The notes under the pieces were generated by a model that was given only the letters and a program-made list of their open reading frames with translations, did not search any database and was not told the DNA's origin. 30,767 nucleotides of DNA from a virus, in the IMG/VR virus record IMGVR_UViG_3300042361_000229, positions 1 to 30,767 of that record, one strand, 5' to 3'. Positions 2,054 to 21,005 of the stretch are shown here, one piece after another. The number at the start of each line of letters is the position of its first letter. Position 1 is the first letter of the stretch. Position numbers and translations under genes: made by a program.

Positions 2054-5000
2054 ATGGTTAATCCGTATACAGACTCTCGTTATGCGCTGGCGAGGATGAT
2101 GGCATCCAAACCAGCGGCACCTCCTATTGGGGGCACTAGCACACCCCGTGTGCCTGCGCCTTCTCGTGCTTCTGTGCAGTTGGGTCGAGCCGCTAATGAC
2201 CTTGCAATAGGTAATCCCACACTTCAAGAGCGTCTGAATACAATCGCCAAGGGGGGCGGTAACCAAAGCACCAAAGGGCTTATGGGTACCGTTCTTGGTA
2301 ACCCTATAGCTAAAGCTGGTTTTAATGCTTTGAATGTTGTCGGCATGGTTGGTCGTGGTACTGTCGGTGTTTTGGATGAGTTCAATAAGGCTACAGATAA
2401 CAACCCTGAAACAAGAGCTTCTTTTTCTAATTTTTATGAAAACGTTAAAGATGTTGAATATGGTTTCGGTAAAGCATTCAATCCCAATACTGGAAGTATT
2501 TGGCTGGACAGGGCTATTGGTTTTGCTGGTGACGTTCTTCTTGACCCGTTAACTTACGCTACTTTTGGTGTTGGTAAGTTTGCTGGCTATGCTGGTCGTA
2601 TGGATTTGGCTAACGCTGTTGGCAAGATTACTAACGACGCTGCTTTGGTTAACCGTGTGCAACGTTTTGGTCGTACAGCTGACGGCATGACTCCTGAGCT
2701 TTTGGAAGCTGTTGGTGCAAACCGTTATGGTTTGCATTTCTTGGGTAAGCGTATTAAAGTAGGACAGTTCGACCAAGGCTTACGTTTGCCTGGTTCGGGT
2801 GCGGTTGGATATATGAGCGAAAGAGGAATGGCTAAGTTGCGCATTATTGCAACTGATAGTAAACTTGGTCAAGCTGTTAGCAAGGTTACTTTGCCTGGTG
2901 ATTTTATTGAAGCACGTCGTGCGTTGCGTGCAGGTCAATTGAGTGACGATACCGCCACTGCTCTTGTTAGTTTTTTTAATGCTGACCCTGTTCAGCGTAT
3001 TGAGGCTGGCCGTGTTTTGCAAGAACAGCGTTCTCGTTTGGTTGATTTGTTTGAACGTGAAAAAGGTAACGGTCTTGATGGGTATAAGAATTCTTTGACT
3101 GACCTGTTGGAGGATGACGCCGCTTTTGCGGCTGCATCCCCCGAGCTGCAACGTGCCGCTAACATTTATAAGAATATTTTTTCCGAGTTTGAAGATAATG
3201 TATTTCAGGGTTTAAAAGCTGTTGACGAAACTATTGACCCAACTGCTCGTTTTCGTCAAAACTATTTTCCCCGGGTGGTTACTGACCGTGGTTTAAATCT
3301 TTTGTCTGACCCCACTCATCCTTTTGGTTCTCAGTTGCGTGCTATTTTTAATCGTGACCCGCTAGCTGGTGGGCGCAACTTTAAGGCTCGTATGCTTGAA
3401 CCTGAAGATAACTTCTTCGGTAAGGTATTGACAGAAGATGATTTGGCGAGCACAACCAAGTTGAACAAGATTGCTCGTGACGCTGGATTTGGTGGGGACT
3501 TTTTCGAGACTGACATTACTAAAGTCTTGACACGCTATATTGATGAGTACGCCAAAGAGATGGGTGTTTTGGCGAAACATAAACATCTTGTTGAAACAGG
3601 TTTTTGGAAGCGTGTGCAGGATATTAAAGTTGATGGACAGTTTGTTGACGAGGAGCTTGTGTCTGCGTTAAAGAGGCGTGCGGGAACCATAGATAACGAT
3701 TTGGCTCGTTCCGCAAAGACCACTGCTGAGGCTTTGCGTTCACTTGATGGGGCTATTAAAGAATCTAAACTAAACATTGCTAAGCAAATGAAAGAAGCTG
3801 AACAGTCTTTAAGGGAGCTTGATGCTTTTGAGGGTATCGCACGCACAGCTGACGATGTCTTAAATGCGGGTATTGATTTGACTGATGCTAGCCTTCAGCA
3901 GGTTGTTGACCAGATGGGTGATTTAAAAAAGAAGTTTGTTGGGATGCTTGGTTTGAAGTTGTCTCGTGGTGGTAAGATTATTATTCCTGATGGTGTTGCC
4001 GAGTCTGATGTTCCCATGTTGTCGGAGAGTATGGTTTCTTTGTTGTCTCGTGTTGAGGCTTCTGTTAATGCTGCTAAACTTGATTTGGATTTGGCTCGTT
4101 CGGGTAAGCAAGGTGCCGATTTGCAGAAGGTTGCTGATGACCTTTTAAAGGAAATGGAGCGCATTAAGACCGAGGTTGATGCCGCACGCACAACTATGCA
4201 GAACACTATTCAGTATGGTGAGATTTTGAATGACGCTTTAGAGGGTGCTGTCGCTGGTGATGTTTCTAGATTAAGCGAAGGTCAGATGCTTGACCTTGGA
4301 GCATTGCTTTCCCCTAGCACCGGCGCTGATAGAGTGTTTGATATTGTTCAGGGTGTTGTTGGTGGTACTGCTGGAGATGCTCAAACGTATCTTCGTAGTT
4401 GGATGAACGAAGCAAACAGTGCTTATAGCCGTTTAACTTCTGCTTCGCCTGCCGAAATTAAAGACTCTATTGCCAAGATGAATAAGTCTGATTTTGAGGA
4501 AATTGTTCAGCGTGCTTTTGATTCCAAGGTTGACCCTAACGAGCTTCGCATGGCAGCTTTTTATGCTTTGGGTATGGATGCTAAACTTTATGGTGCTCAA
4601 GCTCCTGAGGCTATTTCTTTGCTTCGCACAGAGCTGGAGAGTGCATTGGAAGCGCTTGACAATGCAATGGCTTATAACTCTAAGAGGTCTGTTGAGATAG
4701 CACGGGGTGAACGTATTACTGCTAACAAAATTTTTGAAGACCAAGTAAAAGAGTCTTATGCCCGTGTTGTGGATGCGATTGATGATTTGTCTAGTTTAAG
4801 TAAACTTCAGGATGAAGATTTCTTTAAGAACATGCGTCGTGTTGTTCAGGAGAATCCTGCGGCTCTTGATGTTGTTTTAACGCCTGAAACTATTGAACCA
4901 TTTTTTAAGAAGTACCCTATTTTGCGTGATTTTTTTGGAAGTGACAATATTGCAATAGTAGAGATTAAATCTCCTTTTGATGATTCTGTTAGACTACAAA

Positions 5001-8000
5001 GTTTGGATGTTGACAGAGTTCGTGGGTTAATGAATGAGGACGCTTACGTATATAAAGCGCACGAGATGAGTCCCGTTCCTCCACCAATGGCTAAGGATTT
5101 AACCATTGGTGAGTTCTTGGATACTATTGATAATATGGTTAGAACTAAGTCTGGCATTTTGGACCAGCCTGCATATTCTTTTGGTTCCGGTGTTTCTGAA
5201 AGAGCATACACAGGCATGGAACTTAAGGGTATGGTTGACCGCTACAATGGACTGGTCGAAGAATCTAAGAGAATTCAGCGACTTCGCCGTGAATATGTTG
5301 CCGACAACTATGGCGCAACAGATGGTCCCATGCTTGAGCTTGAGGTGAAGCAACTTCTTGAATCGGGTGTTAAGGAATCTGATTCACGTATTGTGGGGCT
5401 GAATCGCCGCATTGAAGCGGCTTGGCAACAGTCCAGAAACCTTGCTTCAACTTCCGAATATGATGATGTTCTTTACGCACAACTTGAAAGGGTTGGTTAC
5501 TTCCGTGAAACTGACCGTATAAAGAAAGCTAAGCTGCGTGCAGAAGCAGAAACCGAATATGCTTTTATCAAGAAAGACCGTGAACAAATAACACGCAAGG
5601 GTGTTATCCGTTCAGGTACTTTTTCTATTGGTGACAAAGAAACAGAAATTGCTGATGCTATTAGGGAAATTTCCGGTGGTGGAGGACTTGTGCGACCCGA
5701 GGGGTTTGATGGTTTGGAGCAGGCACAGGCCAAGTTTGCCAATTCTTTAATGCAGTACACTGTTGTGTCTGAAGTTCACGGTCGATACAATGCTGTATCT
5801 AGTATTCTTGCGGGGTTTAATCAAGCACCAACGGAACGTATGGTTAGAAACATTCTTAATGTTGTCGGGTCTAAACATCTTTCACGTGTTGAGTCTAAAA
5901 TTGAATCGTTTAGACGTGCGGAAGCTATCATGAAGATATTGGATGTTGAGGTTTCTAACGCTTTGCGTGCTGGCACAATGTCTCCTAATGGTGCATTTAT
6001 TTCTAGTTTGAATTCTCTTACCGAGTCACAGCGTGCCATTTTGCGTGAAGCTATCGGTACACAGATGGCATGGACCACTGACCCTAGGGATTTAATTATT
6101 GGGCGTGTGAGAGCACTGAAGGGTAAAAGCACGGTTTCTCCTGGTCCACAGTTAAATCCTGACGGTTCTGTGCGTGTGGATGTAAACGGCAATCCTTTAA
6201 AGCTACCTAACGATAGGACTAAAGCACGCCAGGTTTATTACCGTGAAAACATTGAACCATGGTTTAGGACTACGTATCCTAACGAGCGATACAGTATGGA
6301 AGCAGCTGATAGGAAGCTTACGGCAATTCGTCAACAGAGAGGTGGAACTTCACGTTCCACCGTATCTCCGTTTTCGGAGGAAGCAACTCCTCAAGCAATT
6401 AAGCAATGGTTTGAATCTATTATTGGTGAGTCTGAAATTGGCGGACGTCGTACCCCTAATATTGGTATTGCAAAGCTTCAGCGTGAGGTTAAAAACTTTC
6501 AAAAAATTCATCAACAGATAAAAACCATGACGTCTCCCGACTTGAATATCGGCAAATGGCTTGATGACCCATCTGCAGAACAAAGAACAGCTACATGGTA
6601 TGCACATCTCATGGATGGTTCTGCTAAGCGTTTAAGGGAAGCCGTAAATGCTCATGACAGGCAAGGAAGACTGGTAACGGAGGCACAGCTGGAGGCGGCT
6701 GGGGTGTCTGCACGAGCACAACAGATTGATGAGGATATTGCTCGTGTTACTAACGCTGTCAAGGATATTGAAACTATTAGTCTTGAGGTTAAAGCGGCAG
6801 AAGCTAAAATAAAATCTATTGATAGCCAACTAAAAACCGCTACGGAAAAAACTTTTTTGAATCAACAGAAGAAGGCTGCTCTTGCTGAGCTTAGTGATGC
6901 GAAGCGTAGGTTGGTAACTGTTCAGCAAGCGCCAAAACGTTTACGTGAACTTGAAGAAAGAACTTTCAAAAAACTTAAGGCACGTAATCAACTTTCTAAA
7001 ATTGCTAATGATTTGTCGGATAGGCTTTCTACCGTTGAAGAACAGATTGCTATTATTGAAACAAGACCAAAACCTTTGTCTACAACTTCTAAAGAAAAAC
7101 TTAAGAAACTAAAAGTAGAAAAAAAGAAACTGGATTTAGACATAGAAAAAACTTTAAAGAAGTTTGACGAAACCCCCGCATTGACTGCTGGGGAAAAAGA
7201 AATCATTACCAGGTCTAGAAAAGATATTTCTGTTCGTAGAATGTCTGAAATAAATCAAGAATACGCAGAGCTTAAAGGAAACGCCGAGTATGTTCAAGCT
7301 ACTGCCGACCTGGAAATGCACAAAGCCCTTGATGTGCTTGCGGATTATAATCTTGATGAGTTTATTGATGGTTTTGTAATATCTGAAGCCATGGAAACCG
7401 GGGCACAGGGTGGACCTGCACGTGTAAAGCGTTATGTTCTTATGCCCAACGGTGAGCGGCTTGTTTTTAGCAGAGCAGAAACTACTGCTTTGTTCAGAAG
7501 TCAATATCTGTCTTCCGGTTCACCTACGGCTACCAGGATTGAAGCAAACGTGCGCAATTCCTACGTGCGTGGTTTGTTGGATGGGTTAAAGAAAGAAGAG
7601 GCTGTTAGTCTTTCTAGGGTTAATCTTCTTCAAAATAGAGTTACTGCACTTAATGAAGAAATTGCTTATGTTGAAAACTGGATTGAAGATGCTACAAGTA
7701 GAATCAATTCAGGCGACATCGTAGATGGTCGCATGCTTAATGAAAAACCAGGCGAGTTCATGGGGCGTCGTGCTTCCGAGGTGCGCCAAAATGCTAGAAT
7801 TAAAAAACAACTAGAACTGGAACAAGAACGTCTAAAAAATTCTTTAGCGTTAAAAGAAATTACACAGCGCGAAATAAAAGGTCTTGAAGATTATATTGAT
7901 GAAATTAGAAATGATGCCGCATCATGGGATGATGGGGTATTGTCTTCTGCTTTAGCTAAAGTTAAAATCTTAACAGATGGAACTACCGTTACTCAAACTG

Positions 8001-10708
8001 GTGAAGTTATTCCTGCGGTTCTTGGTCCTGAAGGAATGTCTAGGTGGCGTCAGAATATTAGCGCAATGAAAGCTAGTTCTCCTGAGCAAACCGTTGATGC
8101 CGCAACTGCTGAGTTGCGTCGTGGTCATTTAAATAATGCATGGCAAGCAAACCCGTCTAAAAAGTTTATTGACGAAGGTGAACGTTTACAAAACAGCTTA
8201 ACTAATGAAGTTTTTGAAAGCATGCGCAACGATTTGGATGGCCTGCGTGCAAGAGAGCTTGAAATGCAATACACCGTAGATAGGCGTATTGCTGAAGCCG
8301 AAAAACTTGGTGAAGAAGTTATTAACGTTCGTGAGAGCGCAATGCGTCAGGCTCGTGAAATTGAACAAGCCACCGAGGAAAGGCTTGGCGTTCCTGTTGG
8401 CAGAACAGCCGAGGATGGTACGTTTACTCCCATGGGGGAACAGGCGTTTGATACTCCCGAGTCTATTGTTGAGTTTGCCGATGTTGTGCGTGCGCAAAAC
8501 GAACCTACTGGTCCGTTTGTGCAGCCTCTTACTGGTGCTGAAGCCCGCAAGGCTTCTGCTAACGTTCGTGAAGCATACAAAAGAAAACTTGATACCGCTG
8601 AGCGTGAACTTGCTGAGTTAATAGATAGAAAAGCAGCTAAGCAGACTGTAACCAAGAAGCGTAATGAGATTAACCGTATCAAAGCAGAAGCTAGACAGGC
8701 TGTTGCTAACACCCGTACGCAGGCACAGTTGGATTACGCCATACGTCAAAAGGAGGGTGCCGTTGGACGTCGTCTTGAGGCGTATAATGCGGCTATTGAA
8801 TCTGTTGAAGAGTGGAAGAAGAAGAATCCTGGTGTGATTAAGGATGCTGAAGCAGCTTTGAAAGCGCAACAGAAAATGCTTGACGATGTGCGTTCTGTGG
8901 TTGATGAACTCCGTAGGCAGGATAAAAAGACTATTAATAAGCTTGAAAAAACTTTTGGTGGTACCGACGGATATTGGGCCAAGGTTAATGACACTAAGGC
9001 TTTGATTGATGATTTAAATGAGCAGGCTCGTATGGTAAATATGATTACCGCCATGCCGAGCGAAGAAGCTAGAAATATTATAATGCGTTTGTCGGGCAAG
9101 AAGGGTCGTGTTTCTGCGGCTAGAGCAGATAGGGCTATACAGGCTTATCGTGAGTGGATGGATGTCAACAAGTCTGTGTTTGAAGAATTGTCTAAAAACC
9201 CTGATGACCCTATTGCTAAAGCATGGGCTAATGTAGCAAGTGCAGAGTCTGAGTATATTTGGAATTCGTATCGCAACTTTGATGCTGTTGAAGCTTTGAT
9301 GGATGCTAGTGAGCCTGTGTGGGCTTCACGCATTGTTCAACCTTTTGCTGAGGAGTGGGAAAAGGCGGCCAAAGCTAGTGGCTTGTATGATGCTATGTCT
9401 CCTGGTGGTAAGCGTATTATTGATGAAGATACGGGTGCCGACTTGAGTAAGGGTTTCCCGGGTTTGATGGGTAATACAGAGGCGTTGGAGTTGTTGAATC
9501 GTATGTCAACTTTGGGTACGCCAGGTGTTGTGAATGACCTTGCCAAGTTTATGCGTGGATATACGGGCTTCTTCCGTGGCTACGCCACGTTGAGCCCTGG
9601 CTTCCATGTGCGTAACAGTATTAGCAACGTGTTTTCGTTGTTTGCCGCAGGCACAGACCCTGTTAATATGACTCGTGGTTTTGCAGTTTGGAAGCAGTTA
9701 CAGTCTGGTATTAAGTCTGGTAGAAATATTGATGATATTATTTCTTCTATTCCTAGTGACCAGCAGGAGTTTGCTCGTATTGCTTGGCGTGTTATGAATG
9801 GTTTGGGTGGTGGACGCACTGCTGACGCTCTTGAGGGTTTTATGCGTGAAGGCAATAGGATTACTTCTAATGCTTTTCTTGAAGCTTCGAGAGGTTTTGG
9901 TAATACTTTAGAAGGTTCTAGTCGTTTTATTTTGGCGTATGACTCTGCTGTTAAAGGCATGGATGAGGTTACAGCGTTTAACCGTACCGGTCGTTTCTTG
10001 GTTGACTACAACAAGAAGACGGCGATTGATGAGGTCATGCGTGACATCATGCCGTTTTGGGTGTGGATGAGCCGCAACCTTCCGTTGCAGGTAATCACAC
10101 GCTGGACTAACCCTAAGCCTTATTTGATGTGGGATAAGTTTAGTAAGAACATGCAGGATGAAAACGCCGACAACGAAGTTGTGCCTGGGTATCTTCGAGA
10201 CTTGGGTGCTATCAGTCTTGGCGGTGGCAACTTCCTCAGTGTTGACTTGCCGTTTTCTCGTGTCGATGAACAGATTCAAGGATTTGCTAATCCGAAAAGT
10301 TTCATTGGAAACATCAACCCTGGTATCAAAGCACCAATTGAATGGTTGACCAATACGGATACGTTCCGGGACCGCAAGTTCCCTGATACGTATCGCAAAG
10401 TTGATGGGATGATGCTTCCGTTCCTTCCTTTACTTCAGGCTATTGGTCAAGTAGAGTACGACTCTAACGGCAACCCGGTCACTACCGAAAAGGCTTATTC
10501 AACTTTGATGAACCTTATTCCACCTTTGGGTCGCGCAGAGCGTTTGGCTCCTTCGGATGGTGGATTTAGTGCGCAAGCAGTACGCAGTCTCTTCGGTGTG
10601 CCGTTTACGACCGTCTCAGAGGGCTCTAGAGAGGCCGAGCTGTATAAGCGACTTGACGAGGTTAAACGTGTTGCGGGGGTTCGAGGTAAGGCTGACGAAG
10701 CTCGGTAA
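2054..10708 (+). CDS. Giant 2884-residue virion protein, candidate ejected internal protein
   Basis: One uninterrupted frame of 2884 codons fills 28% of the window. The N-terminus is Ala/Pro-rich, followed by a hydrophobic helical patch near 155-180 (GFAGDVLLDPLTYATFG) and a NYFPRV motif at 403-408. Long charged helical or coiled-coil regions occupy roughly 540-640, 1560-1720, 1850-1950 and 2170-2300. The C-terminal part has GFHVRN at 2516-2521 and PFWVWM at 2667-2672. These match what I remember of the C-terminal domains of 'large polyvalent' phage proteins, a recollection only. I see no RNA polymerase, lysozyme or protease motif. Upstream genes resemble an ejection-protein cassette, so a protein packaged in the head and injected with the DNA is likely. 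A tape measure is less likely because this length would imply a tail of about 0.4 micrometre. The leftward terminator follows directly. Confidence 0.75.
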   Translation: MVNPYTDSRYALARMMASKPAAPPIGGTSTPRVPAPSRASVQLGRAANDLAIGNPTLQERLNTIAKGGGNQSTKGLMGTVLGNPIAKAGFNALNVVGMVGRGTVGVLDEFNKATDNNPETRASFSNFYENVKDVEYGFGKAFNPNTGSIWLDRAIGFAGDVLLDPLTYATFGVGKFAGYAGRMDLANAVGKITNDAALVNRVQRFGRTADGMTPELLEAVGANRYGLHFLGKRIKVGQFDQGLRLPGSGAVGYMSERGMAKLRIIATDSKLGQAVSKVTLPGDFIEARRALRAGQLSDDTATALVSFFNADPVQRIEAGRVLQEQRSRLVDLFEREKGNGLDGYKNSLTDLLEDDAAFAAASPELQRAANIYKNIFSEFEDNVFQGLKAVDETIDPTARFRQNYFPRVVTDRGLNLLSDPTHPFGSQLRAIFNRDPLAGGRNFKARMLEPEDNFFGKVLTEDDLASTTKLNKIARDAGFGGDFFETDITKVLTRYIDEYAKEMGVLAKHKHLVETGFWKRVQDIKVDGQFVDEELVSALKRRAGTIDNDLARSAKTTAEALRSLDGAIKESKLNIAKQMKEAEQSLRELDAFEGIARTADDVLNAGIDLTDASLQQVVDQMGDLKKKFVGMLGLKLSRGGKIIIPDGVAESDVPMLSESMVSLLSRVEASVNAAKLDLDLARSGKQGADLQKVADDLLKEMERIKTEVDAARTTMQNTIQYGEILNDALEGAVAGDVSRLSEGQMLDLGALLSPSTGADRVFDIVQGVVGGTAGDAQTYLRSWMNEANSAYSRLTSASPAEIKDSIAKMNKSDFEEIVQRAFDSKVDPNELRMAAFYALGMDAKLYGAQAPEAISLLRTELESALEALDNAMAYNSKRSVEIARGERITANKIFEDQVKESYARVVDAIDDLSSLSKLQDEDFFKNMRRVVQENPAALDVVLTPETIEPFFKKYPILRDFFGSDNIAIVEIKSPFDDSVRLQSLDVDRVRGLMNEDAYVYKAHEMSPVPPPMAKDLTIGEFLDTIDNMVRTKSGILDQPAYSFGSGVSERAYTGMELKGMVDRYNGLVEESKRIQRLRREYVADNYGATDGPMLELEVKQLLESGVKESDSRIVGLNRRIEAAWQQSRNLASTSEYDDVLYAQLERVGYFRETDRIKKAKLRAEAETEYAFIKKDREQITRKGVIRSGTFSIGDKETEIADAIREISGGGGLVRPEGFDGLEQAQAKFANSLMQYTVVSEVHGRYNAVSSILAGFNQAPTERMVRNILNVVGSKHLSRVESKIESFRRAEAIMKILDVEVSNALRAGTMSPNGAFISSLNSLTESQRAILREAIGTQMAWTTDPRDLIIGRVRALKGKSTVSPGPQLNPDGSVRVDVNGNPLKLPNDRTKARQVYYRENIEPWFRTTYPNERYSMEAADRKLTAIRQQRGGTSRSTVSPFSEEATPQAIKQWFESIIGESEIGGRRTPNIGIAKLQREVKNFQKIHQQIKTMTSPDLNIGKWLDDPSAEQRTATWYAHLMDGSAKRLREAVNAHDRQGRLVTEAQLEAAGVSARAQQIDEDIARVTNAVKDIETISLEVKAAEAKIKSIDSQLKTATEKTFLNQQKKAALAELSDAKRRLVTVQQAPKRLRELEERTFKKLKARNQLSKIANDLSDRLSTVEEQIAIIETRPKPLSTTSKEKLKKLKVEKKKLDLDIEKTLKKFDETPALTAGEKEIITRSRKDISVRRMSEINQEYAELKGNAEYVQATADLEMHKALDVLADYNLDEFIDGFVISEAMETGAQGGPARVKRYVLMPNGERLVFSRAETTALFRSQYLSSGSPTATRIEANVRNSYVRGLLDGLKKEEAVSLSRVNLLQNRVTALNEEIAYVENWIEDATSRINSGDIVDGRMLNEKPGEFMGRRASEVRQNARIKKQLELEQERLKNSLALKEITQREIKGLEDYIDEIRNDAASWDDGVLSSALAKVKILTDGTTVTQTGEVIPAVLGPEGMSRWRQNISAMKASSPEQTVDAATAELRRGHLNNAWQANPSKKFIDEGERLQNSLTNEVFESMRNDLDGLRARELEMQYTVDRRIAEAEKLGEEVINVRESAMRQAREIEQATEERLGVPVGRTAEDGTFTPMGEQAFDTPESIVEFADVVRAQNEPTGPFVQPLTGAEARKASANVREAYKRKLDTAERELAELIDRKAAKQTVTKKRNEINRIKAEARQAVANTRTQAQLDYAIRQKEGAVGRRLEAYNAAIESVEEWKKKNPGVIKDAEAALKAQQKMLDDVRSVVDELRRQDKKTINKLEKTFGGTDGYWAKVNDTKALIDDLNEQARMVNMITAMPSEEARNIIMRLSGKKGRVSAARADRAIQAYREWMDVNKSVFEELSKNPDDPIAKAWANVASAESEYIWNSYRNFDAVEALMDASEPVWASRIVQPFAEEWEKAAKASGLYDAMSPGGKRIIDEDTGADLSKGFPGLMGNTEALELLNRMSTLGTPGVVNDLAKFMRGYTGFFRGYATLSPGFHVRNSISNVFSLFAAGTDPVNMTRGFAVWKQLQSGIKSGRNIDDIISSIPSDQQEFARIAWRVMNGLGGGRTADALEGFMREGNRITSNAFLEASRGFGNTLEGSSRFILAYDSAVKGMDEVTAFNRTGRFLVDYNKKTAIDEVMRDIMPFWVWMSRNLPLQVITRWTNPKPYLMWDKFSKNMQDENADNEVVPGYLRDLGAISLGGGNFLSVDLPFSRVDEQIQGFANPKSFIGNINPGIKAPIEWLTNTDTFRDRKFPDTYRKVDGMMLPFLPLLQAIGQVEYDSNGNPVTTEKAYSTLMNLIPPLGRAERLAPSDGGFSAQAVRSLFGVPFTTVSEGSREAELYKRLDEVKRVAGVRGKADEAR

Positions 10709-11183: not shown

Positions 11184-11383
11184 TCAGTTTTTTCGGCCTC
11201 CGCACGCATTGAGTTTTCAATTGCTGTTGCAACCATAACTACTTGTTCAACAGCTGTTGGTCCGAACTTTTCTTCAATTAGCGCAATGATTGCAAAAATG
11301 TTTGCCACCAACCAAAAAAGGTCAACCTCGTGGGTTTCCTCAGGTTGGGTTTGTTCTTCAGTTGTGTCCGGTGTCAGTTCCAT
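11180..11383 (-). CDS. Small acidic protein with hydrophobic centre
   Basis: A 67-residue protein with an acidic Glu/Thr/Gln-rich N-terminus (about 20 residues), a hydrophobic stretch at about 22-36 (LFWLVANIFAIIALI) and an acidic helical tail. The hydrophobic stretch is borderline for a single membrane span. It begins inside the end of the HTH-Nmad1 gene (26-nt overlap) and ends in an ATGA junction with the 56-residue gene. No family recognised. Confidence 0.55.
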   Translation of the reverse strand: MELTPDTTEEQTQPEETHEVDLFWLVANIFAIIALIEEKFGPTAVEQVVMVATAIENSMRAEAEKTE

Positions 11384-12185
11384 AGTCGTCTCCTAGTTCT
11401 AACGTAAAGGTTTCATCCATAAGCATTAACGCTATTACGCTGTAGCCTACGATGTCTAATAGTGTATCATCTGTTGACTCGTTCTGAGCCGTGTTTCCTT
11501 TTTTTGTGAGGTTTGCTAGGCGTTCTACTTTGTCGCTGAGGCGTACGGTTATACCGTACACTCCGAACTTGAGGATGTTGCCATGCCCGTAGTCGTGTTG
11601 CTTTTTGCACAGTGTGGATATCATGTGTCCTGTGTCCCATGTTTCACGTAGGCGCATCTCATGGATTGCCATGCATGCCATTGATTCGTATGTGCGCTGT
11701 GTGCCTTCTACTGTTGTGATTGCGAACTGTGATTCTAGGGCGTCAATGTAGTCTCGCATCAGGTCGACGTCGGTGCGTTTGCACCGTTCGTCTTTGATGC
11801 TTGCTAGGTGCATGACCCATTGCATTGCTGATTGTTCCCATGTGTCTGCAAGTCGGATTGATTTGCGGATTGTTGTGTCTGTTGCCATGACGCTCCTCAG
11901 TTTTTCAAAGGCTGCATTCCTGAGCCTCCATACGTGTGTTTTGGTTATGCCAATTTCGTTGGCGATTTTCTGTAGCGACTTTCCTTCGCTGATACAGGCG
12001 TTGATTATCCACAGGTCTCGTGGTTCTAGTTCGTCTACTAGACGAGCTACCGCCTCTCGTAACACCATCAGGTCTTCATTGGATTGTGCTGGCTCCTCGA
12101 AAGGTTTTGCTATCATCAATGCTTCGATATCGCTGTCGGGTGCCCGGTCTGCTGTTGACCTTATGGGTTTGAACTCATTCGTCAT
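11358..12185 (-). CDS. Sigma-region-4-like HTH fused to Nmad1/MazG-like domain
   Basis: A 275-residue protein with two recognisable parts. Residues about 43-98 match a sigma-70 region-4 type helix-turn-helix: LEPRDLWIINAC, then GKSLQKIANEIGITKTHVWRLR and a basic end. Residues about 190-260 carry the pattern QHDYG, FGVYG, RLSDKVERLANL and ESTDDTLLDIVGY, as in phage DUF1599/Nmad1 and MazG-like all-alpha nucleotide pyrophosphohydrolases, where the E..D residues bind metal. A helical linker (105-185) joins them. The gene may sense or hydrolyse a nucleotide while binding DNA, or may regulate transcription; the fusion is visible, its role is inference. The start overlaps the end of the upstream nuclease gene by 11 nt. 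Confidence 0.65.
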   Translation of the reverse strand: MTNEFKPIRSTADRAPDSDIEALMIAKPFEEPAQSNEDLMVLREAVARLVDELEPRDLWIINACISEGKSLQKIANEIGITKTHVWRLRNAAFEKLRSVMATDTTIRKSIRLADTWEQSAMQWVMHLASIKDERCKRTDVDLMRDYIDALESQFAITTVEGTQRTYESMACMAIHEMRLRETWDTGHMISTLCKKQHDYGHGNILKFGVYGITVRLSDKVERLANLTKKGNTAQNESTDDTLLDIVGYSVIALMLMDETFTLELGDDYGTDTGHN

Positions 12186-17173: not shown

Positions 17174-17355
17174 ACTTTCTCCTTGCAGTATTGTTCAATG
17201 TATTCACTGATTGATTGATGCAGGGCGTCAATGTGGTCTAGACGTTCTGCATAGTCGCCCATATGGTTGTCGTACGAGTCCAGCATGTCGCCGTATTCAT
17301 ACATAACAACTCGTGCGTTGTGAATGATTGCATCTATTAAATGTTCGTTGCTCAT
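17170..17355 (-). CDS. Small acidic helical protein
   Basis: A 61-residue protein, acidic and His/Tyr/Asp-rich (YGDMLDSYDNHMGDYAERLDH), mostly helical in appearance. It is linked by ATGA overlaps to the Rpf-like gene upstream and the zinc-ribbon gene downstream, so it is certainly in the same transcript. No family recognised. Confidence 0.6.
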   Translation of the reverse strand: MSNEHLIDAIIHNARVVMYEYGDMLDSYDNHMGDYAERLDHIDALHQSISEYIEQYCKEKV

Positions 17356-17897
17356 CTGTTCCTTAATGCTTGTCGTGGTGATGGTACTGGTGGTTTAAGG
17401 TTGGGGTTTTGCGCAATGCATCCCCAGCCGTAGAAGCCTACGGGGTTTCGGAAAAACGGTTTGTCGTTAATCTTGTCTTCGTAGGTGAGATACGATTGGG
17501 TTTGCCAACCGTAGAGCGCAATCCTGTTAGCGATAATAATCTGTTCCTCTCGTGTCGCTTTACTCGGGTGGTTAGCGAATTCGTGCCCACCGAAATTTTT
17601 CCACGTGCGTACATATATACCTAGACCTCCTGCCCATTGTCCTTTGTTCTGCCAGTTTTGTCGTGTCTCGCATTGCGCTACTTTATCCCAATACGAGTCT
17701 TTAGGTTTCTTTAAGGTTGCCAACCACTCGGCGTCATACGGCTTGTAAGGCTTCGGCGCTAGTGTCGTGGTAGTAGACACAGGCACAGTCGGCAAGATGG
17801 GCTGTACGGTCGTTGTGGTGGTTATGGTGGATGTTGTTGATGTGTTGCTAGAAGCAAGTGTAGCGGGGTAGTTAAACCCCGCCACAATCACGCACAC
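17352..17897 (-). CDS. Secreted Rpf-like transglycosylase (muralytic) protein
   Basis: The domain YWDKVAQCETRQNW (69-82), then GGLGIYVRTWKNFGG and REEQIIIANRI, matches resuscitation-promoting-factor/transglycosylase-like domains that cut peptidoglycan; Glu77 is the expected catalytic residue. Residues 18-46 form a Ser/Thr-rich linker with runs of Thr. Coordinates use the first standard start, GTG at 17897 (181 residues). That start would cut the signal peptide: eight further in-frame codons upstream give a Ser-Lys-Thr-Thr n-region and complete a hydrophobic core LLAVCVIVAG. They begin with ATT at 17921, 8 nt after GAGGGG. The protein is probably exported to the wall as a lysin, entry aid or growth-modifying enzyme. 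No other endolysin is visible in the window. Confidence 0.75.
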   Translation of the reverse strand: MCVIVAGFNYPATLASSNTSTTSTITTTTTVQPILPTVPVSTTTTLAPKPYKPYDAEWLATLKKPKDSYWDKVAQCETRQNWQNKGQWAGGLGIYVRTWKNFGGHEFANHPSKATREEQIIIANRIALYGWQTQSYLTYEDKINDKPFFRNPVGFYGWGCIAQNPNLKPPVPSPRQALRNR

Positions 17898-18951: not shown

Positions 18952-19884
18952 TTAGAAATGTTGGTCAAGTGTGCTGTCATAGTTGCCAACAGAATGTAGA
19001 TGTGAATACGAGTCGGGTTGCGCACTGTAACATTCACACGACAAGCGTGGATTATGACAGAACCAACAGCCATCACAGATAGGGCACAGGTCGGCTTGGT
19101 CTATGTTGTCCTCGTGGAAATACTCCTCGTGCTTACACAATGCGCAAGTCCACAACTCACCCCACACCTCGTTGCCGTCCTCGTCAAGATATGTACAGTC
19201 CTCAACATACTGATTGGATTGGTAATCAGAAGGCAGATACAACGGCTCAGAGTAGTCATACTTCTTGGGTGCATAAGTCTTAGACCAACCCGTAGAGTAC
19301 ATAGATGAACCACTATATGAATACACGTGGCGTGTGTACTTGTACGAGTTGTTAGACCACCACACACCGTTATGCCAGTGACCGTCATTTTCGTTGATGA
19401 TATGGTAGTCCTCGTTGACGGCGTGATTAGCAGACAGGAACACAAGTTTAGAACCTTGCGCAAACTTGGCTAGTTTCTTGCGTCGCTTGGTGCTGTTAAG
19501 GATAGATGCGCCACCCATTTGTGGAAGCATCTCCTCAGCAAAGATACGAGTATCGGACTTGCCGTCACGTTCCTTGATAGGAAGCATACCGTTATGGGCA
19601 ACAATAGTTAGCGCATCTTTGCCAACTTGGAAAGGGTGACAGTTCTCAACACTTGTACCACCGTGTGTGGTGATACGAGAGTGAAACAACGCAGGACCCG
19701 AATGCTTGGCACGCACGCTTAGGAACTCGTCAAGCACCTTGTCAAAGTTGAGACCACTATTGTGGATTATCTTTGTGCCAGCGTGAACAGCGTACCCGAA
19801 ACCATCGGGGTTGTTGTCGGCACCGACAGTCAAGTCATCAACATTGGCTGTGGTGTATTCATTCATAAAAGTCAATAAACACAT
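18952..19884 (-). CDS. Class-II (Ntn) glutamine amidotransferase with C-terminal zinc module
   Basis: A 310-residue protein starting MCLLTF, so Met removal would expose Cys2 as the Ntn nucleophile. NNPDGFGYA (24-32), HSRITTHGG (68-76), NCHPF (81-85), HNGM (97-100) and SDTRIF (110-115) are the class-II amidotransferase signatures: Arg70 for the glutamine carboxylate, Asn98-Gly99 for the oxyanion hole. It should release ammonia from glutamine. The part after about 165 is Tyr/Trp/Asn-rich and ends in a cysteine cluster (Cys247, 250, 267, 270, 273, 276, 283, 285), probably two zinc sites. There is no synthetase domain in the same chain. The start lies 2 nt after the amidoligase stop and uses GGGAAAGGAG in that gene's last codons, so the two are translationally coupled and probably act together. 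Confidence 0.85.
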   Translation of the reverse strand: MCLLTFMNEYTTANVDDLTVGADNNPDGFGYAVHAGTKIIHNSGLNFDKVLDEFLSVRAKHSGPALFHSRITTHGGTSVENCHPFQVGKDALTIVAHNGMLPIKERDGKSDTRIFAEEMLPQMGGASILNSTKRRKKLAKFAQGSKLVFLSANHAVNEDYHIINENDGHWHNGVWWSNNSYKYTRHVYSYSGSSMYSTGWSKTYAPKKYDYSEPLYLPSDYQSNQYVEDCTYLDEDGNEVWGELWTCALCKHEEYFHEDNIDQADLCPICDGCWFCHNPRLSCECYSAQPDSYSHLHSVGNYDSTLDQHF

Positions 19885-19886
19885 TA

Positions 19887-21005
19887 TTAGACTCCTTTCC
19901 CTGATGCGTAAGCATCAAACTTTGTATATTTATTTGTAATAGTCCACTCACGGAAGCGTTCCCAATCGTGAGCGGCTTTGATATTGACACGGTTACGAGT
20001 TGCGTACGCATAGTGCGCAACAGCGTGTACACCCTCAAGGCGACCGATGAAAGTCTCGGGGCGTAAAGTACCCTTGAAGAAACGCAACTCTAAAGTGTTA
20101 CGGTTCTGTAAGTTGATAGCAACATAACGCTCGTTGTTGTGTGCGTTCTGAGTAAAGTTCTTGGCGTAGTGAAGCATACGGTCAAGTTCATACTCAGACC
20201 ACGAAGCGTATGAGGAGTTCTCGCGACCAGCGAGAATTTTCCACTGCGCACTGTTGCGGTAGAACATAGACATAAACCGATACATAGTGCTTGGTGAACC
20301 ACCAAAGAAGTTACGGTTGATGTGAATATGTAAACCACAGGTACGAGTGTTGGCGGAACGCATACCAATGTCGGCAAGTTCTTTCAGTCGTTCCCAAGGA
20401 AACTGATTGACAGAAAACTTGTGAGACAACGGATGTGAAACCATCTCAAAACCATTGTTTAGCGAGCCGTCCTCTTTGAGGTAACAATAGCGACTAAATA
20501 TTTCTGTTGCCAGTTCCGCACCGTCAAAACGCTCACACCCTGACGCTTCCATTTCTAACTCAAAGCCAGTAAAGGTACGCAACTCCTTAGGAAGTTTATT
20601 GTCCTCATCAAACTTGAAGAAGTTAGGAATAGGGCGATAACTGTACGACTCAATCAAGTCGCCACCTTCGTCGCAACGCTCACAGCCGTCTCGTTCGTAA
20701 TGCGAACCGTGACGGTCACAATAGTCAACCTCGTCTATACAACTGCTACACACAGTCTCGTCTGATTGGTCAACATATGTGGTGTCGTCCTGACTGTCCG
20801 CCAAGTTGCCACAGCGAGGACAATGGAACGCCTCATAGTTACACGAGTCGCACAAAAGTGTTTCGCCGTGATTGTTGTAACGATTGCCTGACAGTAGCCA
20901 AGTGTGCATCTCGGATACTTCGTGTTCCTCGGAACAGAAAAGGCACACAGCCATCTCGGGTTCGTCTGGTTCGTCAGGGGTATTGTTGATATTGATGTCA
21001 GTCAT
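19887..21005 (-). CDS. GS-fold amidoligase (COOH-NH2 ligase) with N-terminal zinc modules
   Basis: A 372-residue protein. Residues 21-111 hold cysteine pairs typical of treble-clef or ribbon zinc sites (Cys21/24, 52/55, 62/65, 86/89, Cys96/His99, 108/111). The enzyme part follows: GFELEME (147-153), KEDGSL (177-182), EMVSHPL (187-193), GLHIHIN (224-230) and NLQNRNTLELRFFKG (298-312). These are the metal- and ATP-binding strands of the Amidoligase_2 family, glutamine-synthetase-like enzymes that join a carboxylate to an amine. With the amidotransferase next door it could amidate a carboxylate with ammonia, or link peptide-like molecules. The substrate is unknown; the zinc modules may dock it. 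GAAGGAG precedes the start. One copy of the AACTCGGAA dyad lies 41 nt upstream. Confidence 0.85.
   Translation of the reverse strand: MTDININNTPDEPDEPEMAVCLFCSEEHEVSEMHTWLLSGNRYNNHGETLLCDSCNYEAFHCPRCGNLADSQDDTTYVDQSDETVCSSCIDEVDYCDRHGSHYERDGCERCDEGGDLIESYSYRPIPNFFKFDEDNKLPKELRTFTGFELEMEASGCERFDGAELATEIFSRYCYLKEDGSLNNGFEMVSHPLSHKFSVNQFPWERLKELADIGMRSANTRTCGLHIHINRNFFGGSPSTMYRFMSMFYRNSAQWKILAGRENSSYASWSEYELDRMLHYAKNFTQNAHNNERYVAINLQNRNTLELRFFKGTLRPETFIGRLEGVHAVAHYAYATRNRVNIKAAHDWERFREWTITNKYTKFDAYASGKGV

Follow-up and report, generated by a model that had tools for sequence, protein, structure and literature searches.

A conserved amidoligase and class-II glutamine amidotransferase gene pair as a candidate two-component amidation system in a tailed phage

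By 2009, a gene pair for an amidoligase and a glutamine amidotransferase (GATase) had been described in phage phiEco32 (Iyer et al., 2009, as cited in PMC10580990), and the same source credits the 2012 Marvin paper with reporting a phage pair as well. The pair of the OM43 phages MEP401 and MEP402 has been published as auxiliary genes (PMC10580990), and genome papers on LUZ24-like phages list the genes (PMC3890496, PMC3517423). In the literature examined, no biochemistry or tested function was found for the phage pair. A mechanistic precedent is offered by MurT/GatD, in which the ligase touches the glutaminase through a Cys-rich, zinc-ribbon-like insertion at the interface, and mutation of this insertion affects association (PMC6085368).

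The window analysed here is the whole of an incomplete tailed-phage record, 30,767 bases in length. Its right part encodes the terminase, a P22-like portal, a scaffold and an SU10-like capsid protein on the plus strand, while a leftward operon of approximately 11.3-24.4 kb encodes a RusA-like nuclease, a primase of the archaeo-eukaryotic type, a DnaB-like helicase and a PD-(D/E)XK exonuclease. The amidoligase and GATase genes sit toward the upstream end of this leftward early/replication operon, separated by 2 nucleotides (Table 1). With a probability of roughly 0.55, the pair would constitute an ATP-driven, glutamine-dependent amidation system of two components, acting on an acceptor carboxylate of a host or phage macromolecule.

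Table 1. Positions in the window of the two genes and of their principal features
Feature	Positions	Strand	Evidence
Amidoligase gene, 372 aa, first of the pair	19887..21005	-	PF12224 9.2e-7; phrog_16683 4.5e-37; AlphaFold pLDDT 91.3; Foldseek YbdK/GS/GMAS/Dop
Amidoligase N-terminal Cys-rich module (probable zinc ribbon / LIM-like), residues ~21-112	20670..20945	-	C62/C65/C86/C89 conservation; pLDDT; LIM-like PDB profile matches
GFELEME motif (G147-E153 region), an acidic strand that probably binds Mg/ATP in the active site of the GS fold	20547..20567	-	No variation at G147, E149 and E151 among 93 relatives
Class-II glutamine amidotransferase gene, 310 aa, second of the pair	18952..19884	-	GATase_4 at cut-off; phrog_25883 3.9e-30; GlmS profile 3.7e-7 (its family)
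Ntn-type glutaminase domain, residues 1-185 (C2 nucleophile, R70, T73, N98, G99, D111)	19330..19884	-	Invariant residues; homologous domain of L066 against GlmS 1.2e-6
Amidotransferase C-terminal eight-cysteine cluster, C247-C285	19030..19146	-	Cys kept in all or at least 90% of 43 viral relatives; rare in bacterial partners (2/67)
AAGGAG Shine-Dalgarno-like element within the last amidoligase codons, 7 nt ahead of the amidotransferase ATG	19892..19897	-	Sequence

Several other genes of the window deserve mention. An open frame of 2884 amino acids on the structural-gene strand, 2054-10708 (+), has no Pfam or PHROG match at E 0.001; its product is probably a virion or internal protein of very large size. 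In a protein of 275 amino acids, 11358-12185 (-), a helix-turn-helix resembling sigma-70 region 4 is combined with a DUF1599 (nucleotide modification associated) domain. Within the early/replication operon and away from the structural genes lies a protein with an Rpf/transglycosylase-like domain (PF06737 1.1e-14), 17352-17897 (-); together with the WhiB genes of related loci (L118), this Rpf-type protein suggests actinobacterial hosts.

Both reading frames were found where the original prediction had placed them, and with them all of the motifs that it had named: GFELEME, GLHIHIN and LELRFFKG in the amidoligase, and an MC start, NNPDGFG, HSRITTHGG, NCHPF and HNGM in the amidotransferase. These motifs, like the Cys clusters of the two proteins, are far beyond chance. 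Its family assignments were borne out by profile searches, in which the amidoligase scored above the Amidoligase_2 cut-off (PF12224, 29.4 bits against 22) and the amidotransferase exactly at that of GATase_4 (PF13230, 4.3e-5). Amidoligase_2 is also matched by 90 of 93 amidoligase relatives (E 0.001), and the window protein matches the phage family phrog_22302 in addition to phrog_16683. In the alignments, from which rows from annotated public records were excluded whole, the Gly and two Glu residues of the GxExE motif are accompanied by further acidic, His and Arg positions (D179, E187, H226, R261, E306, R308) that are invariant across all 93 amidoligases. An AlphaFold model based on the alignment of these relatives has high mean confidence (Table 1), and Foldseek matched it to YbdK (2.2e-5), glutamine synthetase (GS, 8.8e-5), gamma-glutamylmethylamide synthetase (GMAS, 1.1e-4) and Dop (4.4e-4), with the Pup enzymes Dop and PafA among the top structural matches in an overall range of E 2e-5 to 1e-3. 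The TM-scores of these matches are modest (0.3-0.4), as may be expected for a distant relative with an extra domain. Taken together, the matches support a glutamine synthetase/GCS fold, as had been predicted. Judged by its sequence, the amidoligase is probably an ATP-dependent amide-forming enzyme that adds ammonia to an acid group.

For the amidotransferase, the GATase_4 profile is matched by 36 of the 43 members of its phage family, all of which share G75 in addition to the invariant residues listed in Table 1. Near its H-x-R-x-x-T-H-G and HNG motifs the family can be aligned with GlmS, and the glutamine-binding and oxyanion-hole residues of GlmS have invariant counterparts in the phage family. 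The Ntn fold that had been anticipated was seen in L066, a relative that was modelled in place of the window protein and whose GATase domain matched the GlmS glutaminase structure 1xff at 1.2e-6 and EgtC structures more weakly, at 7.2e-4. Among the PDB sequence matches of the GATase family, considered up to an E-value of 1, EgtC is absent. GlmS ranks first by sequence and by fold, whereas EgtC appears by fold only, and the Pfam family GATase_4 fits either. The amidotransferase is probably a glutaminase that releases ammonia from glutamine, so far as can be read from its residues and relatives.

The chief rival to an ammonia donor is an arrangement like that of EgtA and EgtC, in which the amidoligase would couple gamma-glutamyl (or another amino acid) to an amine or to an amino acid, and the product would be cleaved by the Ntn protein, acting as a gamma-glutamyl amide hydrolase. 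EgtA (GCS fold) and EgtC (Ntn) act in this manner in ergothioneine synthesis, and DUG3, a gamma-glutamyl hydrolase included in Pfam GATase_4, does so on glutathione. The EgtC structures among the Foldseek matches and the GATase_4 matches of the phage GATases are consistent with such a role, and the gamma-glutamyl cyclotransferase of the LUZ24 and phiEco32 operons keeps it in play, as this enzyme would fit gamma-glutamyl amides over primary amides and would count against amidation by ammonia. However, GlmS and PurF glutaminases match better than EgtC by sequence and fold, the clostridial and LUZ24 partners are GlmS/PurF/AsnB-like proteins of GATase_6/7, and among the scanned genes of the window no further member of the ergothioneine pathway was recognised. 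In sum, we regard this arrangement as unlikely.

The pairing of the two genes was followed through viral contigs in four scans, two seeded with the enzyme families (one each) and two with the window proteins. The resulting sample of 174 viral loci holds 143 distinct pairs in 21 amidoligase clades. In 170 of the 174, both genes are present and adjacent with the amidoligase first. This count covers the top-scoring loci of scans whose seeds were paired phages, and certain loci overlap on one contig, so that distant unpaired relatives are under-sampled. Of the four remaining loci, two (L096, L114) are cut at or near the contig end, a third (L006) has the amidoligase beside a different class-II GATase, and one, the Clostridioides phage AR1086-1, truly lacks a GATase beside the amidoligase, as does the plasmid pCd18_2. 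Three apparent reversals of gene order were rejected as over-extended GATase frames. The pairwise distances of amidoligases and GATases are correlated at r = 0.89 (0 of 1000 permutations), and the correlations of the amidoligase with the other neighbours tested, 0.49-0.87, all lie below that value. Across 142 pairs, the median gap is 11 nucleotides, and a Shine-Dalgarno-like element lies at most 20 nucleotides from the GATase start in 106. The pair is also found in one spring-water podovirus; a DNA-level search of the named phages gave no matches. Outside the core phage genes, no third gene is fixed beside the pair, the recurring neighbours being core replication genes, WhiB (71 related loci) and small open reading frames. 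The gene pair is real, with strong support for a partnership, and probably works together, and the joint pathway first proposed holds as a genetic unit, with co-occurrence being the rule among these viral relatives.

A single coriobacterial locus (L181, 4969-7215) has the amidoligase and GATase in one frame of 681 amino acids, which may be an assembly error. As this frame is changed relative to the nearly identical L177, it was read as a frameshift or assembly effect and was not counted as a natural fusion, which would have been strong evidence for the partnership.

In bacteria, the relatives recovered by one genome scan are mostly from Clostridia, and in 66 of the 76 loci with a callable amidoligase, that gene has a class-II GATase a short distance downstream. 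The clostridial partner belongs to GATase_6/7, a sublineage nearer PurF/GlmS and distinct from the GATase_4-like partner of phages, although a GATase_6/7-like partner also occurs in LUZ24. The use of two GATase-II sublineages in the same slot points to a shared requirement, most simply for glutamine-derived ammonia, and glutaminase activity is most plausibly their common property. The pair is also present, in the same order, on mycobacterial plasmids. Many of the clostridial loci are probably mobile elements, given the resolvases, integrases and relaxases that they carry.

The arrangement of the genes varies in some of these loci. Two tandem amidoligase genes are followed by one GATase gene in clostridial L226 (5118-7356) and L228 (5821-8083), and clostridial L212 (5998-12060) contains two complete pairs. 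In AR1086-1 and pCd18_2 (L005, 5138-7947; L256, 4138-6946), the GATase-less amidoligase gene is located between those of a DUF1653 protein and an RlaP-type RNA-repair nucleotidyltransferase, and upstream lies that of an RNA 2'-phosphotransferase. With no adjacent GATase, the ligase can act without one there, which speaks against a joint amidation system.

The occurrence of the pair in both phages and mobile elements would be explained if it amidated (or aminoacylated) a host protein or defence factor in counter-defence or host take-over. The location in an early/replication operon and the Cys modules, which suggest a macromolecular partner, agree with this role, and so do the clostridial pairs near resolvase, integrase, relaxase and NikA-like genes. 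It nevertheless appears distinctly unlikely, as the connection is one of association, with no PADLOC match and no anti-defence neighbours identified. Membership of the pair in a defence system was itself rejected for want of a PADLOC match.

Cysteine clusters had been noted on both enzymes, and they proved to be highly conserved among the viral relatives. The N-terminal region of the amidoligase (about 110 residues) is Cys-rich, mostly modelled at pLDDT 80-96, and matches LIM-like PDB profiles. Its C62, C65, C86 and C89 are invariant or at least 90% conserved in the 93 relatives, the pairs 62/65 and 86/89 reach at least 90% in viral and bacterial relatives alike, and further CxxC pairs are present. 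The tail of the GATase lies behind the Ntn domain and follows the eight-Cys pattern C-x2-C ... C-x2-C-x2-C-x2-C ... C-x-C, in which C247, C250, C267 and C270 are invariant and C273, C276, C283 and C285 at least 90% conserved among 43 viral relatives. Both clusters presumably bind zinc. Of 143 viral pairs, 113 have two or more CxxC motifs at the N-terminus of the amidoligase and again in the tail of the GATase. The Cys module is carried by 72 of 78 bacterial amidoligases, whereas the GATase Cys tail is found in 131 of 143 viral against 2 of 67 bacterial proteins. The module of the amidoligase is therefore characteristic of the family, and the GATase tail was added in certain lineages.

Docking of the two enzymes through these clusters, as envisaged in the original prediction, is upheld only in part. 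The near-universal amidoligase module and the MurT/GatD precedent (PMC6085368) speak for it, but the GATase tail is lineage-specific, being absent from the OM43 phages and nearly all clostridial partners, in which the pairs are kept nonetheless. A joined AlphaFold model (L066 with its stop codon read through, 34 paired rows) has confident domains, and with a pTM of 0.46 no interface can be claimed from it.

The preferred reading, a glutamine-dependent amidation system, builds on families, active-site residues, folds and a near-obligate pairing that were established computationally. After the Ntn-fold GATase had lost its initiator Met, its Cys2 would hydrolyse glutamine and free ammonia, and the GS-fold amidoligase would activate a carboxylate with ATP and Mg and form the amide from this ammonia. 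The Cys-rich modules probably help to hold together the two proteins, or the amidoligase and a macromolecular substrate, much as the MurT insertion does with GatD. The most likely acceptor would be a carboxylate of a host macromolecule, either a peptidoglycan precursor or a protein.

A version of this reading with a specific target, the amidation of the cell wall or envelope to exclude superinfecting phages or to protect the wall of the host, was suggested for phiEco32 by Iyer et al. (2009), as cited in PMC10580990. The shared gene order of phiEco32 and the window, and the actinobacterial context given by WhiB in 71 related loci and the Rpf-type transglycosylase domain in the window, are in keeping with this target. 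Yet the pair also occurs in Methylophilales phages and in mobile elements of Clostridia, it has no linked envelope gene, and no sequence feature points to peptidoglycan as the substrate, so we hold this version to be possible but rather doubtful. Amidation of a carboxylated base in nucleic acid, together with the DUF1599 gene (11358-12185), is highly improbable. DUF1599 is matched in the window (2.6e-8) and in 24 of 40 related phage records, and Cys modules can bind nucleic acids; however, it was not found in the pair-bearing Tesla, MEP402 and about 12 other such records, and no recognised base hypermodification enzymes were seen among the scanned genes. DNA hypermodification through DUF1599 was rejected on account of the many pair-bearing records in which that domain was not found.

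That the two genes stay so tightly paired in 21 viral amidoligase clades and in mobile elements of bacteria suggests a minimal working unit of these two genes alone. The main value of the window pair is that, as such a unit, it provides a clean version of the prediction of 2009 that is directly testable with two small proteins. More speculatively, a minimal zinc-bearing pair common to actinobacterial, proteobacterial and clostridial phages and mobile elements might amidate one particular macromolecule of host or phage as a step in counter-defence or take-over; this is improbable, and we know of no such step in any virus.

Among the known systems, phiEco32 (gp84-83) and LUZ24 (gp18-19) share with the window an amidoligase directly followed by a class-II GATase, which in these two phages is a GATase_6 protein longer than that of the window. 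Their operon adds a COOH-NH2 ligase, a RimK-like ligase and a gamma-glutamyl cyclotransferase, whereas the scanned genes of the incomplete window record gave no Pfam match to a COOH-NH2 ligase (PF14395), an ATP-grasp ligase or a gamma-glutamyl cyclotransferase. The OM43 phages MEP401 and MEP402 have PF12224 and GATase genes in the order of the window, overlapping and with homologous cores, but their GATase is without the Cys tail and their amidoligase has a long extra N-terminal region. The clostridial mobile-element pair likewise has a homologous amidoligase with N-terminal CxxC modules ahead of a class-II GATase, which is of another sublineage without the Cys tail, and its neighbours are DUF960, DUF3846 and DUF4314 genes. 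MurT/GatD resembles the window pair in combining a ligase with a separate glutaminase and in carrying a Cys module on the ligase, located in MurT at the interface (PMC6085368), but it consists of a Mur-ligase fold and a class-I (triad) glutaminase rather than a GS fold and an Ntn class-II GATase; the window pair works like MurT/GatD at most and is not a member of that system. The Marvinvirus pair (mycobacteriophage Tesla gp108-gp109; Marvin 105-106) has the same order and adjacency as the window, identities of approximately 30% for the amidoligase and 36% for the GATase, and both the N-terminal Cys module and the C-terminal Cys tail, though with a gap of 81 nucleotides, a longer amidoligase C-terminus and another phage backbone. 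The window pair belongs to a kind known since 2009, of which it is a minimal two-gene form, most like that of Marvin.
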